From assembly GCF_009831575.1 (NCBI RefSeq), contig NZ_WUUT01000002.1:434001-498000 (forward strand): a stretch of 64,000 nt of DNA, read 5' to 3'. Of the stretch, positions 249-16,804 are shown piece by piece. The position numbers and the translations under genes were made by a program. The notes under the pieces are model-generated. The model was not told the origin of the DNA and searched no databases. It saw nothing but the letters and a program-made list of their open reading frames with translations. The DNA comes from Halovenus carboxidivorans (GTDB lineage Archaea; Halobacteriota; Halobacteria; Halobacteriales; Haloarculaceae). The number at the start of each line of letters is the position of its first letter. Within the stretch, counting starts at the first letter, position 1.

Positions 249-437
249 CGAGGGGCGCGAACGGAGTGAGCGGCCCTCGGCAAGGCGAGCGGGAACGGAG
301 TGACACGCGAGCCGCGAAGACGTTGAGAGCCGGCGAGACGAGCGAGAGCGGAGCGAGACGCGAGCCTGTCCGTGTCGTGAGCCGGTCGCGGTATCGATTG
401 GAGAATTTTTCCGTTAGGCCGCTCGTACCCGAAGGAC

Positions 438-8534: not shown

Positions 8535-10184
8535 TCAGCGCTCGGCGTTGGACTCCCGGAGGGACTTCCGGCGGATCTTCCCGGTCGATGTCGTCGGGAG
8601 TTCGTCGGCGAACTCGATGTGATCCGGGTACTCGTAGGCGGCCAGGTTCTCGCGAACGAGGTCGCGGATCTCCTCGCGCAGTCGGTCGGGGTCGTCCGGC
8701 TCCCCGGCGGGTTGGACGACCGCCTTGATCGCCTCGCCGGTCGTCTCGTCGGGGACGCCGACCACGCCGACCTGTTCCACCGACGGGTGATCGAGCACCG
8801 CCGATTCGACCTCCGTTGGCCCGACGCGGTAGCCTTTGGTCAGGATCACGTCGTCGGCCCGGGAGACGAACCAGAGATAGCCGTCCTCGTCGCGCTCGAC
8901 CAGATCGTCGGTCAGAAACCATCCGTCGTCGGTCTGCTTGGCGGCCGTCTTCTCCGGGAGGCCGAGATACTCGTCGAAGAAGACCCGCCTGTCGTCGGGC
9001 TTGACCGCGAGTTCGCCGACCTCGCCCGTCTCGACTGGCTCGCGGGTCTCCGGGTCGAGGACCCGAATCTCGTAGCCCGGCAGGGGCTTCCCCATGCTCT
9101 CCGGCCGTGGCTCGAACCACTCCCCCGAGTTCGCGACACAGAGGTTCAGTTCCGTCTGGCCGTAGAACTCGTTGATCGACACGTCGGGCAGGGCCGCTTC
9201 GCCCCACTCCAAGATGTCCGCCGTCATCGGCTCTCCGGCGGAGGCGATTACTTCGAGCGAGAGGTCGTACCGTCCGGCCGGGTCGTCGACGGACTGGAGC
9301 ATCCGGAGCGCGGTCGGCGGCATGAAGGTGTGGGTCACGTCGTGACGCTCCAGGCAGGCGAACACGTCCGTCGGCTCGAAGGACTCGCGCGGCCAGCCGA
9401 CGACCGTACAGCCGTGGTGCCACGCCGCAAAGAGCGTGCCGCCGAGCGCCGCGCCCCAAGCCCAGTCTGCCGGCGTGAACAGCGTCGCGTCGTCGAGCCC
9501 GCGGTCGAAGTAGTTGAACGCCGCGGCCGCCCGACCCAGCCACAGCGCGTGGCTGTGGACGACCCCTTTCGGCGGGCCCGTGCTCCCGCTGGTGTACATG
9601 ATCGCGCTCTCGGTCTCCGGCGTCGCGTCGTAGATATCGATGCCGCTCTCACCGCGGTCGAGGACCGTCTCGAACGCGATCGCGTCACCGTCGACGGAAT
9701 CCGAGTCACCGAGTTCGATCACCTGCTTTAGGTCCGGGCAGTCCTCACGGATGGCCTCGATGTCCTCCCGGACGCTCGGATCGATCACGACGGCGACTGC
9801 CTCGCTGTCTTCGAGGCGATACCGCAGGGCGTCGGGACCGAACAGCACCGTCAGCGGAACCGAGACGGCCCCGAGTTTCCAGTTCGCGAGGTGCGTGATC
9901 GGGTTGGCGGGCCGCTGTGGAACGACGACGCCGACGCGGTCGCCGGGGTCGACGCCGAGAGCGGCGAGTCCGGACGCCAGTCGATCCGACCGCCGGTCGA
10001 TCTCGCCGAAGGTGAGATGGTCGCTCGTCTCGTCGCTCCCGTCGGGATCGTACCGGAGCGCGACCGAGTCGGGATCGTGTTTCCGGCAGAGGTCCCGGGC
10101 GGGATTGTACGAGTCCGGAAGCTCCCACTCGAACGCCTGTCGGGCCTGCTCGTAGCTATCGTACGCCCCCATGACCTGCCACAT
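8535..10184 (-). CDS. AMP-forming acyl-CoA synthetase, medium-chain type (copy 1)
   Basis: A 549-residue adenylate-forming enzyme that activates a carboxylic acid to acyl-AMP and then acyl-CoA. Visible motifs are the P-loop IMYTSGSTGPPKGV, the A5 motif NEFYGQTELN, the hinge region FVSRADDVILTKGYRVGP, and the catalytic Lys in TSTGKIRRKSLRE. The ATG at 10184 is chosen because longer versions run into the divergent acyl-CoA dehydrogenase. It is paralogous to the gene at 15149-16804 over its full length (shared DSYEQAR-like N-terminus and TPADWAWGAALG). The neighbouring dehydrogenase suggests a fatty- or branched-acid oxidation role. Confidence 0.88.
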   Translation of the reverse strand: MWQVMGAYDSYEQARQAFEWELPDSYNPARDLCRKHDPDSVALRYDPDGSDETSDHLTFGEIDRRSDRLASGLAALGVDPGDRVGVVVPQRPANPITHLANWKLGAVSVPLTVLFGPDALRYRLEDSEAVAVVIDPSVREDIEAIREDCPDLKQVIELGDSDSVDGDAIAFETVLDRGESGIDIYDATPETESAIMYTSGSTGPPKGVVHSHALWLGRAAAAFNYFDRGLDDATLFTPADWAWGAALGGTLFAAWHHGCTVVGWPRESFEPTDVFACLERHDVTHTFMPPTALRMLQSVDDPAGRYDLSLEVIASAGEPMTADILEWGEAALPDVSINEFYGQTELNLCVANSGEWFEPRPESMGKPLPGYEIRVLDPETREPVETGEVGELAVKPDDRRVFFDEYLGLPEKTAAKQTDDGWFLTDDLVERDEDGYLWFVSRADDVILTKGYRVGPTEVESAVLDHPSVEQVGVVGVPDETTGEAIKAVVQPAGEPDDPDRLREEIRDLVRENLAAYEYPDHIEFADELPTTSTGKIRRKSLRESNAER

Positions 10185-10264
10185 ACCCGTGGTTGTGGCA
10201 AGCGGGGTCAAACGCCTGTCGGTTCGTCGCCAGCCATTTTTAGCTGTCGTCCCTACTCGGCGGT

Positions 10265-11392
10265 ATGGAGGCGTCATCGGAGCGGGATCTGATCAAAGAG
10301 ACCGTACGAGAGTTCGTCGAGGAGGAGGTACGGCCGCGAGCGGCCTCGGCGGACGAACACCAGGAGTTTCAGGAACAGTTGTGGGACGACCTCGCCGAAC
10401 TCGGCTTCACGGGGCTGACGATTCCGGAGGAGTACGGGGGGTTCGACGCGGATCAGGTCACCTACAGCCTCATCAACGAGGAACTCGCACGGGGGGATCT
10501 CTCGCTGGCGACGGCGCTGTCGGTGCACTGTCTCGCGACCTCCTGTATCCGGACGTTCGGTTCGGAGCGCCACCGTGAGGAGTGGTTGCCGGCGATGAAC
10601 GACGGCCGCCCGGTCGGTGCCTTCGCGCTGTCGGAGCCACAGGCCGGCTCGAACCCCGCTGAGATGACCACCGAAGCGCGTCCGGACGGCGACGAGTACG
10701 TCATCAACGGAACGAAGCAGTGGATCACCAACGGCGAGCGCTCGGGCGTGGTGATCCTGTTCGCGAAGACCGACCGCGAAGACCCGGACTCGATCACGCA
10801 GTTTCTCGTCCCCAAGGACACTCCGGGTGTCGAGGTCGGCAAGAAGGAGGACAAACTCGGCCTGCGAGCCAGCGACACGACGACGCTGAACTTCGACGAC
10901 GCACGGATTCCCGCGGAGAACCGGCTCACGGAGGTCGGAGAGGGGTTGAAGGCGGCGCTGTCGACGCTCACCGGCGGACGAATCGCGATTGCGAGCCAAG
11001 CGGTCGGTCTCGCACAGGCCGCGCTTGACGACGCGCTGGCGTACGCCGAGCAACGCGAGCAGTTCGGCCAGCCGATCATCGACCACCAGGCCGTCGCACA
11101 CTCTCTGGCGGAGATGCAGACTCGGGTCCAGGCCGCACGCCTGCTCTCGCGAGACGCCGCGCGGAAAAACGACGGCGAGGCGGTCGATCCGATGGCCGCG
11201 TCGATGGCGAAGTACTTCGCCAGCGAGACCGCCGAATCGGTCGCCAGCGACGCCATCCAGATCCACGGCGGCTACGGCTTCACCAAGGAGTACGACGTGG
11301 AGCGATACTACCGCGACGCGAAGGTGACGACGATTTACGAGGGGACGACGGAGATCCAGAAGGAGATCATCGCCCGACACCTCCGCTCGTGA
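10265..11392 (+). CDS. Acyl-CoA dehydrogenase
   Basis: A flavoprotein of 375 residues that introduces the alpha-beta double bond into acyl-CoA and passes electrons to ETF. Sequence marks are EEYGGF near residue 58, FALSEPQAGSNPAEM (FAD/substrate loop), WITNGERSGVVILFAKT, and the C-terminal QIHGGYGFTKEYDVER with the catalytic base Glu in IYEGTTEIQ. Length is normal for the family. It is divergent from acyl-CoA synthetase copy 1 with 80 bases between, which suggests coordinated use. A TTTTTAG element lies 28 to 23 bases before the ATG, so the transcript is probably leaderless. Confidence 0.92.
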   Translation: MEASSERDLIKETVREFVEEEVRPRAASADEHQEFQEQLWDDLAELGFTGLTIPEEYGGFDADQVTYSLINEELARGDLSLATALSVHCLATSCIRTFGSERHREEWLPAMNDGRPVGAFALSEPQAGSNPAEMTTEARPDGDEYVINGTKQWITNGERSGVVILFAKTDREDPDSITQFLVPKDTPGVEVGKKEDKLGLRASDTTTLNFDDARIPAENRLTEVGEGLKAALSTLTGGRIAIASQAVGLAQAALDDALAYAEQREQFGQPIIDHQAVAHSLAEMQTRVQAARLLSRDAARKNDGEAVDPMAASMAKYFASETAESVASDAIQIHGGYGFTKEYDVERYYRDAKVTTIYEGTTEIQKEIIARHLRS

Positions 11393-13925: not shown

Positions 13926-14354
13926 CTAGTCGTCTTCTTCGGTAGTCGTCATGTCGAGGTCTTTCTCGCCGAGGTAGATTTCGAGGCCGTCCTGTGCGAC
14001 CTTCTCTGCGAGGACCGCACATTTGACGCGCATCGGAGAGATGTCGACCCCGAGCATGTCGATGATGTCGTCGCGGTCCATCTCTTCGAGGACATCCGTC
14101 TCCATGCCCTGAAGCTCCTCGGAGAGCATCGACGCCGCGGCCTGTGAGATGGCACAGCCGTCGCCGCGGAACGCGACGCCTTCGATTGTCGATTCGTCGT
14201 CGTCGAGGACGACATCCATCTCGATGGTGTCGCCACACATTGGATTCTCGCCGACGTGAGTGAAAGTAGGCTCCTCGATCTCACCGTAATTACGGGGATT
14301 TTTGTAGTGATCGAGGATCTGCTGTCGGTACATATCTGAGCCGCCGATTCCCAT
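13926..14354 (-). CDS. sufU: Fe-S cluster assembly scaffold SufU/IscU-like
   Basis: The protein begins with MYRQQILDHYKNPRNYGEIE and has the three conserved cysteines of the IscU fold: ENPMCGD, RGDGCAIS and VKCAVLAEKV. It serves as scaffold or sulfur-transfer protein in Fe-S biogenesis, normally with SufS and SufBCD, which are not in this window. The start at 14354 (MGIGGSDMYRQQ) is chosen from family length (142 residues); the frame stays open upstream to 14411. The acidic C-terminal tail (TTTEEDD) is typical of haloarchaea. Confidence 0.85.
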   Translation of the reverse strand: MGIGGSDMYRQQILDHYKNPRNYGEIEEPTFTHVGENPMCGDTIEMDVVLDDDESTIEGVAFRGDGCAISQAAASMLSEELQGMETDVLEEMDRDDIIDMLGVDISPMRVKCAVLAEKVAQDGLEIYLGEKDLDMTTTEEDD

Positions 14355-14457
14355 TGTTACCACCTGATTGGGTCGTTTCGGAAAAAAGGCTTCCGAGTGA
14401 GTCTCTGCCATGGGAAGACGATAGAATTAACTGAGGCGGTAGGGTACGGAGGGATGC

Positions 14458-14562
14458 GGGCCCGTAGCTCAGTCTGGTAAGAGCCCCCGGCTCATACGAT
14501 AGCAAGGTCGGCTTGGTATCTGGGTTACCGGGTATGCGGTGGTTCAAATCCGCCCGGGCCCA
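14458..14562 (+). tRNA. tRNA-Met(CAU), elongator, with intron
   Basis: A full cloverleaf can be folded. The acceptor stem is GGGCCCG/CGGGCCC with discriminator A at 14562. The D stem is GCTC/GAGC, the anticodon stem CCCGG/CCGGG, the anticodon loop CTCATA plus A (anticodon CAT at 14493-14495), the variable loop TATGC, and the T stem GGTGG/CCGCC with loop TTCAAAT. CCA is not encoded. Haloarchaeal elongator tRNA-Met is known to carry an intron between positions 37 and 38, as here. The first base pair G-C and the intron argue for elongator rather than initiator. Confidence 0.93.
14497..14526 (+). other. tRNA-Met intron with bulge-helix-bulge splice motif
   Basis: The 30-base intron starts after ATA of the anticodon loop. 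CTCA (exon) pairs with TGGG (intron end) in a 4-bp helix flanked by 3-base bulges TAC and TTA; inner stems GATA/TATC and CAAG/CTTG continue the helix. This is the canonical motif cut by the archaeal tRNA splicing endonuclease, between A and C and between T and A. Confidence 0.88.
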
Positions 14563-14972
14563 TGCCTGTGAGGAACGAACGTGACGAGCAGTGCATGGCC
14601 CGACGGCGATTTGAGCCCAGAGGACGAGCCGAGGCGAGTCCTCGTGGTTCAAATCCGCCCGGGCCCATGCCTGTGAGGAACGAACGTGACGAGCAGTGCA
14701 TGGCCCGACGGCGATTTGAGCCCAGAGGACGAGCCGAGGCGAGTCCTCGTGGTTCAAATCCGCCCGGGCCCACTTCTCCGCGAACGACAGTGAGCGGTGA
14801 ATGGACCACGCGGATTCGAACTCAGTCACGAACGAGCGGAGCGAGAGACGTGACCACAGTTCAAATCCGCCCGGGCCCATGTTGCCACGAACATCGTGAG
14901 TGGCTACTGGGCCGACAGCGGTTTGAGCCCAGAACAAGCGAATGTGAGTCCTCGTGGTTCAGATCCGCACAA
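14541..14972 (+). repeat. Tandem array of tRNA-Met 3'-end copies, about 105-bp period
   Basis: The T-arm/acceptor 3' end of the tRNA recurs downstream: exact 22-base copies start at 14541 (inside the tRNA), 14646 and 14751, a 21-base copy lies at 14859-14879, and a decayed copy starts at 14956. The first two 105-bp units (14541-14645 and 14646-14750) look identical. Between direct copies lie diverged inverted copies, ATGGCCCGACGGCGATTTGA at 14595, an ATGGACCACGCGGATTCGAA version at 14801, and GGGCCGACAGCGGTTTGAGC at 14909. No tRNA body, integrase or open gene accompanies them. Short peptides such as GPGGFEP read from this region are antisense T-arm sequence, not proteins. Confidence 0.85.
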
Positions 14973-15148
14973 GTCTGTGGTTCCACGGTCCATAAAAAGG
15001 CGTTCCGCATCGCTCGTGACGAGTTGATAATCGTATCAGAACACCGTCCAGCACACCGACGACGGGACGGCCGCACCACAACACAGCAGAGCAGGGTACA
15101 TCCTCCCCAGGGTAGTGTTCTATACCAGAGGAGGCCAAACTGTGTGGT

Positions 15149-16804
15149 GTGACATGGCACATCAGCCTCGACGATGGGGGGTACGAACAGGCCAGGGAGT
15201 CCTTTCAGTGGGATCTCCCCGAGGGATATAACATCGCCTGGGATATGCTTCGGAAACACGAGGATCCGGAGCAGCCAGCACTGAAACAGGCATATCCCGA
15301 CGGCCGGCGAGAAACGTACAGTTTCGCGGAGTTGGATCGGTTGTCGAACCAGTTCGCGAACGCACTCACCGAGCGGGGGGTGTCACGCGGTGATCGTGTC
15401 GGGATCATCGTGCCACAAAAGCCCGCAAACCCGATTGCTCATCTGGCGTGTTGGAAGTTGGGAGCGATTTCGCTCCCGCTGTCGGTGTTGTTCGGTCCCG
15501 ACGCCCTGCAGTATCGGCTTCGGGATAGCGAAGCGAACGTCGTCGTGGCGGATGAGTCGGTCCTCGGAGCCGTCCGGGAGGTGCGCGAGGAGTGTCCCGA
15601 CCTGACGCAGGTCATCGCTGTCGATGAGGAGAATCCGGAGGAAGGGGTCGAGCGGTTCGAGGGGGTCTGTGCCGGCCACGAAGCCTCCTTCGAGATTGCC
15701 GATACCGAGGCGGAGACACCGGCGATCATCATCTACACGAGCGGATCGACCGGCCCGCCGAAGGGGGTGCTCCACGGGCACGGGCTCTGGGCCGGCCACT
15801 GTCCGGCTTTTTCCATGTACTTCGAGCATTCGGTCTTCGAGTCGGTCTACTGGACACCCGCTGACTGGGCGTGGATCGGAGCGCTCGGGGACGTGGTCTT
15901 CCCCGCCTGGCACTACGGCCAGCCGGTCGTCAGCTATCCGATGGAGGGGTTCGACGCCGAGACCGCGTTCGAGCTGTGCGAGGAGTTCGACGTGACCGAT
16001 ACGTTTCTCCCGCCGACCGCGATTCGGATGATGATGACAGTCGACGATCCCACTGAACGCTACGACCTCTCGCTCGACGCGATCTGTTCGGGCGGGGAAC
16101 CGCTGACGCCGGAGATTCTCGACTGGGCCGAGGAACAACTGGACGGTGTCGCGGTGAACGAACTCTACGGCCAGACAGAGGCGAATCTGTTGGTCGCCAA
16201 CTGCCGGGAGTGGTTCCCGGCGCAGGCCGGAAGCATGGGCAAGCCGGTCCCGGGCCACGAAGTCGCGGTCGTCGACCAGGAGACCGGCGAGAGAGTCCCG
16301 GACGGTGCGGTCGGAATGATCGCGGTGGCACGCGACGGGGACCCGGTGGTGTTCCAGGAGTACTGGAACGAACCGGAGAAGACGGCGGCGGCCTCAGTGA
16401 CTGGTCCGGACGGAACGGAGTGGCATCTGACGGAGGATCTGGGCTACCGCGACGAGGACGGCTACTACTGGTTCAAGGCTCGTGACGACGACGTGATTAT
16501 TACCTCCGGGTATCGCGTCGGTCCGGGTGAGGTCGAGAGCGCTATCCTCGAACATCCCGAGATCGAACAGGCAGGAGTCATCGGCGTCGATCACGAGACA
16601 CGGGGGGAGATCATCAAGGCGTTCCTCAAGCCCGTCGACGGTGCCAGTGAAGGTGAGTCTCTCCGCGAGGAGATCCGACATCTCGTGCGCGAGCGACTCG
16701 CGGAGTACGAGTACCCGCGGGAAATCGAATTCGTCGACGAGTTACCGACAACGACGACGGGGAAGATACAGCGTCGAAAGCTACGGGCACGAGAACACGA
16801 GTGA
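15149..16804 (+). CDS. AMP-forming acyl-CoA synthetase, medium-chain type (copy 2)
   Basis: A 551-residue paralogue of the protein at 8535-10184. Motifs present: IIIYTSGSTGPPKGV (P-loop), NELYGQTEANL (A5), WHLTEDLGYRDEDGYYWFKARDDDVI (A7/A8 hinge), SGYRVGPGEVE, and the catalytic Lys in TTTGKIQRRKLR. It activates an acyl substrate, probably of medium or branched chain, to its CoA ester. The start is GTG at 15149; no in-frame ATG lies near, and the paralogue has an N-terminus of the same length. It sits immediately downstream of the tRNA-derived array. Confidence 0.87.
   Translation: MTWHISLDDGGYEQARESFQWDLPEGYNIAWDMLRKHEDPEQPALKQAYPDGRRETYSFAELDRLSNQFANALTERGVSRGDRVGIIVPQKPANPIAHLACWKLGAISLPLSVLFGPDALQYRLRDSEANVVVADESVLGAVREVREECPDLTQVIAVDEENPEEGVERFEGVCAGHEASFEIADTEAETPAIIIYTSGSTGPPKGVLHGHGLWAGHCPAFSMYFEHSVFESVYWTPADWAWIGALGDVVFPAWHYGQPVVSYPMEGFDAETAFELCEEFDVTDTFLPPTAIRMMMTVDDPTERYDLSLDAICSGGEPLTPEILDWAEEQLDGVAVNELYGQTEANLLVANCREWFPAQAGSMGKPVPGHEVAVVDQETGERVPDGAVGMIAVARDGDPVVFQEYWNEPEKTAAASVTGPDGTEWHLTEDLGYRDEDGYYWFKARDDDVIITSGYRVGPGEVESAILEHPEIEQAGVIGVDHETRGEIIKAFLKPVDGASEGESLREEIRHLVRERLAEYEYPREIEFVDELPTTTTGKIQRRKLRAREHE

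Follow-up and report, generated by a model that had tools for sequence, protein, structure and literature searches.

Folded repeats of about 105 bases, each ending in the tail of its own tRNA, behind tRNA genes of Halobacteriales

Several described systems place short repeats beside tRNA genes or fold short repeats into hairpins. The att sites of archaeal tyrosine integrases (SNJ2, SSV, and related systems) are direct repeats of a tRNA 3' end that stand beside an intact tRNA gene. Integron cassette arrays and their attC sites form tandem arrays in one orientation, with imperfect palindromes that fold in a strand-specific manner and with a variable order of cassettes. REP, REPIN, and BIME elements, as well as the PATEs and MITEs of haloarchaea, are short, non-coding, palindromic, and present in many copies per genome. 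Haloarchaeal tRNA 3' trailers and T-stretch terminators lie directly after base 73 and have a T-rich start. Work on Haloferax volcanii (PMC7237163) describes intergenic termination at a T stretch with a C behind it, 59% termination by a hairpin element, and two 3' ends downstream of tRNA-Pro.

The array analyzed here lies behind a tRNA-Met gene in a haloarchaeal 64-kb window (the whole stretch of DNA under analysis, G000:C2:434001-498000, from a 3.25-Mb genome in 10 contigs, G000), and its units share the above features of repeat, fold, and position with these systems. Unlike integrase att sites, they are about 105 bp long, gene-free, folded, multi-copy, and linked to many tRNA kinds per genome. 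They differ from integron cassettes in carrying no cassette genes, in their core sequence, and in being anchored to tRNA genes, and from the REP-like and MITE-like repeats in that they occur only behind tRNA genes and end in the host tRNA tail. To our knowledge, a conserved, covarying 105-nt fold with a tail copy is undescribed for tRNA trailers. The units constitute a previously unlisted family of folded repeats of about 105 bases, each of which ends in an exact copy of the terminal 21-22 bases of its tRNA. This family appears to be a conserved element tied to tRNA genes and not a set of viral-insertion scars. No description of such units was found in the literature searched (open-licence papers), and matches to known Rfam families outside tRNA were all below threshold. 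The guide RNA sR-tMet (RF02163, a C/D box guide for tRNA-Met) was considered and rejected, as it bears only a weak likeness to the start of units 1 and 2 (20.4 bits against a cut-off of 50). Elsewhere in the genome, G000:C2:228759-228855 (L009) is a candidate sR-tMet guide RNA at 45.5 bits, just below the same cut-off.

The features of the tRNA-Met array are collected in Table 1. A first-pass annotation of this DNA had noticed a tRNA tail repeated every 98 to 107 bases, with two identical 105-bp units and with diverged inverted T-arm copies between the direct ones. Both observations hold: successive tail copies are spaced by 105, 105, 107, and 98 bases, positions 14539-14643 and 14644-14748 are 100% identical over 105 bp, and each of the first three units contains an inverted copy, while that of unit 4 is partial. 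Within an intact unit the order is hairpin 1, inverted T-arm, hairpin 2, and tail copy. The degenerate last copy takes the array to 14977, 5 bases past its previously assigned end. The fold downstream of the tRNA is 10 standard deviations better than that of shuffled sequences, and with the family covariance model the array units reach 63.6 bits (E 2e-13) and 47 bits (E 2e-9). The intron of the tRNA-Met gene is probably about 30 nt long, since 32 bases remain unmodelled in the Rfam alignment; the 10-nt intron called by ARAGORN is probably too short.

Table 1. Features of the tRNA-Met locus and its downstream array (window coordinates)
Feature	Position	Strand	Evidence or remark
Elongator tRNA-Met(CAT) gene with intron, 105 bases	14458..14562	+	Rfam RF00005 52.9 bits; ARAGORN
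Tail copied from tRNA-Met, 22 nt, GGTTCAAATCCGCCCGGGCCCA	14541-14562	+	3' end of the tRNA-Met gene
Unit 1 body	14563..14645	+	Fold -58.4 kcal/mol including copy; CM R1 47 bits (14563-14667)
Unit 1 hairpin 1	14563-14595	+	
Unit 1 anti-tail/antiT	14596-14617	+	15/22 against tail reverse complement
Unit 1 hairpin 2	about 14618-14645	+	
Tail copy 1	14646..14667	+	22/22
Unit 2 body, same as unit 1 body	14668..14750	+	100% identical 105-bp repeat; CM match G000:C2:448668-448772
Unit 2 inverted tail copy	14701-14722	+	15/22 against tail reverse complement
Tail copy 2	14751..14772	+	22/22
Unit 3 body, hairpins diverged	14773..14857	+	CM R1 63.6 bits, E 2.2e-13 (14772-14879)
Unit 3 antiT GGATTCGAACT	within 14801-14822	+	16/22 against tail reverse complement
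Unit 3 hairpin 2, C(GGA)G loop	14834-14845	+	
Tail copy 3	14858..14879	+	21/22
Unit 4 body, decayed	14880..14955	+	Fold and repeat comparison
Terminal tail copy, degenerate	14956..14977	+	15/22

Three long open reading frames cross the array, at 14290-14937 (-), 14525-14809 (-), and 14562-15152 (+), with 215, 94, and 196 aa and GPGGFEP-like repeats; they arise as by-products of the repeat and are likely to give rise to spurious hypothetical proteins. The flanking reading frames at 8535-10277 (-) and 15149-16804 (+) have similar translations that by eye resemble acyl-CoA synthetases. Elsewhere in the window, two GARCGNAGYGAG-type hairpins lie at 259-357 (+), apparently between genes; this motif occurs three times in the window against 0.33 expected. 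A GA-hairpin motif has 20 intergenic copies in 782 kb, a small sample for a general role as a haloarchaeal 3'-UTR hairpin.

The same layout recurs elsewhere in this genome, behind other tRNA genes. When 41 tRNA genes were scanned, 17 tail copies (at least 16/22) were recovered in 24.6 kb of downstream sequence and none in 43.5 kb upstream, so the array is not due to chance. Besides tRNA-Met, ten further tRNAs have copies of their own 3' ends 75-360 bases downstream, among them Ser-cga (22/22 at +88), Arg-cct (22/22 at +153), Arg-gcg (22/22 at +120), Met-2 (21/22), and Ser-tga (21/22). Relatives have arrays behind tRNA-Met, Val, Gln, Leu, Pro, and Gly, and the tail matches the respective tRNA in each case.

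A strict search pattern (tail - GATTYGA - tail) was found in 135 of the 146 genomes of the family, with no hit for a reversed-pattern control, and in 49/53 sampled Halobacteriales genomes versus 0/241 other genomes of the phylum. As the pattern requires intact copies, these counts are lower bounds. In each of five genomes, the covariance model gave 18-47 matches. Three complete genomes were compared with their tRNA genes: 92 of the 99 matches listed for them lie directly downstream of, and on the same strand as, a tRNA found by Rfam; five of the other seven follow tRNAs seen by ARAGORN (four with introns), and the last two stand behind short pieces of a tRNA end, which resemble right ends of integrated islands. 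All 99 listed matches are therefore tRNA-linked, with no dispersed insertion sites. Units stand behind 22/42, 21/42, and 13/46 of the Rfam tRNAs of these genomes; up to about half of the tRNA genes in the Halobacteriales examined closely carry at least one unit on the same strand. A search of plasmids and phages for units yielded no match, and a free mobile element was rejected as an explanation. Eight viral contigs fit the pattern; only one (L137) contains a unit, beside tRNA-Glu, and the other seven read as phage tRNA clusters or chance.

The anatomy of the family was worked out with 201 units, taken from 116 tRNA genes of 33 kinds and biased towards unit-rich genomes and intact tails. Bodies between tails measure 75-139 nt, and each unit starts at, or a few bases from, the end of the tRNA or of the preceding tail copy. 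The equal length of tRNA gene and unit, 105 bases each, which the first-pass annotation had pointed out, is correct for this locus and is a coincidence in view of this range. The copied segment covers tRNA bases 53-73 with sharp edges: of 22 positions, the first matches the tRNA with an identity of 0.83 and the other 21 with about 0.96, compared with 0.34 just before the copy and 0.61 just after it. The sequence that follows tRNAs and internal copies starts T-rich, and that after terminal copies does so less strongly; runs of at least five T within 30 nt follow only 4% of unit-bearing tRNAs, while a shorter T/C-rich stretch is common. A one-base insertion in the T-loop of tail copies (GTTCACAATC, TTCGACATTC) was seen at L277 and L281 (tRNA-Trp), at L276 and L282 (tRNA-Pro), and in unit B of L019 (tRNA-Met); it is common to the tRNA-Trp units of two families and is possibly a functional bulge.

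On the sense strand, the unit folds into hairpin 1 followed by a long hairpin composed of an antisense-T-loop segment (antiT), hairpin 2, and the tail copy. The antiT is complementary to the T-loop and three T-stem bases, and a weaker complement to the acceptor end is also present (z 7.3 for 5 nt). The antiT tracks its own tRNA, matching 2.37 of 4 T-stem pairs versus 1.53±0.07 with tails shuffled, and base 57 covaries with its antiT partner as A-T or G-C in 134/147 cases. RNAalifold predicted 19 pairs from 30 units, 11 of them with compensated changes; the structure was derived from the same MAFFT alignment. There were 74 doubly changed cells compared with 26.9±4.6 after shuffling, and shuffles as good numbered 0/500 on four of five measures and 6/500 on the fifth, where covariation control (a) ignores relatedness. 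Sliding the partners abolishes the signal. The units are maintained by compensatory changes. Hairpin-2 loops are of the type C(GNA)G in 72/121 and of the complementary type in none, and tandem G.A pairs lie on the tRNA-sense strand. In 74% of units the sense strand has the lower folding energy, and its mean advantage is 3.3 kcal/mol. Therefore, one strand, that of the tRNA transcript, carries the fold. An earlier suggestion that direct and inverted copies pair within a structured RNA agrees with this covariation and strand specificity as far as the pairing goes; that the folded molecule is RNA is a prediction from sequence.

Comparison with relatives, as proposed in the first-pass annotation, revealed that whole units are gained and lost exactly at tail boundaries. 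At tRNA-Met in the genus of the window, the same flank follows directly after the tRNA tail in G017 and after two whole units in G007. A clean insertion at the repeat distinguishes sites that have the element from those that lack it (L019 versus L021, L134 versus L129); one apparent deletion (L131 versus L125) occurred via a AGTCGCAGC repeat inside units and not via the tails. At tRNA-Ser-tga, 30 species of one genus have three unit types in varying order and number, with the orders 1-2, 2-1, 3-1-3, and 1-3-2 at a single locus. When the first unit of G087 is left out, its tRNA-Ser array aligns to that of G092 with 207/235 identical positions versus 144/246 for the intact array, with breakpoints at the tails. 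Behind the same tRNA, four species of one genus (L118, L128, L130, and L133) have a common sequence, CCTCGGGGCTAATC..., which suggests a common integrated element.

Copies are perfect in 74% of internal and 39% of terminal positions. In two clades with different tRNA tails, the copies differ in the same way, even at one site (CAGT versus CAGC) that lies beyond the paired core, which indicates concerted evolution of the tails. For this and for the turnover of units, homologous recombination between the repeats is a sufficient explanation.

Integrated islands of the same genome allow a direct comparison with ordinary insertions. At tRNA-Arg-tcg (L206, G000:C1:228999-231112), an insert of 2.0 kb ends with 13 nt of the tail (CCTGCAGCGCCCA), a footprint that resembles the SNJ2-type core of about 13 bp (PMC8371274) and is unlike the units, and a complete unit follows. 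At tRNA-Ala-cgc (L235, G000:C4:10409-24369), the end fragment of a 13.8-kb insert starts about 32 nt from the tRNA end and is again followed by a unit. At tRNA-Leu-tag (G000:C2:301709-330137), the intact gene and a tRNA 3' fragment of about 45 nt stand about 28 kb apart, and two units follow the fragment. Because the units lie beyond the island ends, the islands entered tRNA genes that already had units. The first-pass annotation had suggested that the array may be a record of serial integration and loss of integrative elements. Tail duplication and tRNA targeting speak for such remnants, as haloarchaeal integrases use tRNA 3' ends, with SNJ2-type att cores reported to measure 13 bp (PMC8371274), the repeat across the 201 units is the tRNA 3' end up to base 73, and orthologous sites differ by clean insertions at the repeat. 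Nevertheless, the islands leave repeats of 13 nt, about 32 nt, and about 45 nt and not 21-nt copies, and they split tRNAs from their older units. A uniform, covarying content of hairpin, antiT, and hairpin at dozens of tRNA kinds would also be unexpected in leftovers, and no gene-bearing element lies within the tail repeats, whose bodies span only 75-139 nt. Serial integration is therefore very unlikely, and this part of the annotation is not upheld.

We tentatively favor, at somewhat less than even confidence, an interpretation in which the array consists of four tandem units of a structured, tRNA-linked Halobacteriales element that acts as a trailer RNA with further 3'-end sites and changes by tail recombination. 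The unit would be transcribed together with the tRNA as a structured 3' trailer, and each tail copy with the following T-rich stretch would provide an additional 3'-end site. Ends may be formed by termination at the T stretch, by trimming (tRNase Z) after base 73 as on the tRNA itself, or by both. Read-through would thereby be limited, or discrete trailer RNAs of about 105 nt would be released, with a presumed benefit to the cell; recombination between direct tail repeats would shift copy number and keep the tails alike. The location, the strand-specific covarying fold, the start near base 73, and the T-rich stretch all fit the trailer model, and the termination modes and the two tRNA-Pro 3' ends described for Haloferax volcanii (PMC7237163) speak for it as well. 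Counted against it are the rarity of T runs of at least five behind arrays, the many tRNA genes without units, and the predominance of cGNAg hairpin loops; such loops are unusually stable in DNA. In addition, the copies are nearly identical to the tRNA even at weakly paired acceptor positions, which a trailer RNA alone would not need; recombination with the tRNA tail or a role at the DNA level would account for this. Due to this poor fit, a quarter of the weight stays with a DNA recombination cassette, that is, a non-coding mini-element that would recombine at the T-loop of its own tRNA via the folded sense strand, as integron attC sites do. New units would then enter beside the tRNA and old ones decay distally, in keeping with the poorer distal copies. 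The copy edges (T-loop to base 73) are those expected of a T-loop att site, and whole units come and go from tail to tail at tRNA-Ser and tRNA-Met, in different orders at one locus, with strand-specific hairpins and DNA-type loops. Despite this, the cassette is a serious but less likely rival: plasmids and phages gave no match, free or ectopic units are absent from the 99 listed matches, homologous recombination could produce identical gains and losses, and the match lists show some unit types apparently bound to one tRNA kind across families. A more specific form, a gene-less integron-like system in which units of about 105 bp would fold in single-stranded DNA and a putative recombinase would exchange them at the T-loop of their own tRNA, is improbable; if true, ordered arrays would record past exchanges.

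A neutral repeat, amplified by slippage and template switching at hairpins and homogenized by gene conversion without any function, would suit the wide differences in copy number among related species, the loci that retain only a decayed hairpin, and the two identical 105-bp units, which suggest a recent tandem duplication. It is rather improbable given the order-wide presence at many tRNA kinds, the compensatory changes in several helices, and the exclusive linkage to tRNA. The antiT could also act as a strand-exchange switch, pairing with either the tail copy or the T-arm of the tRNA, and so tune tRNA folding or maturation. It is complementary to both, and where copy and tRNA differ, it fits the tRNA in 28 positions but the copy in 4, a bias also expected from simple decay of the copies. 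Moreover, the local hairpin should form first and no condition or ligand is suggested, which makes a switch quite unlikely.

A folded element that ends in a copy of its host tRNA and occurs throughout an archaeal order is relevant to the making, termination, or protection of tRNA 3' ends. It is also a natural system for reading copy number and covariation at dozens of tRNA kinds in parallel. The arrays explain spurious "hypothetical protein" reading frames annotated over them, and they are a trap for methods that take tRNA-tail repeats as integration scars.
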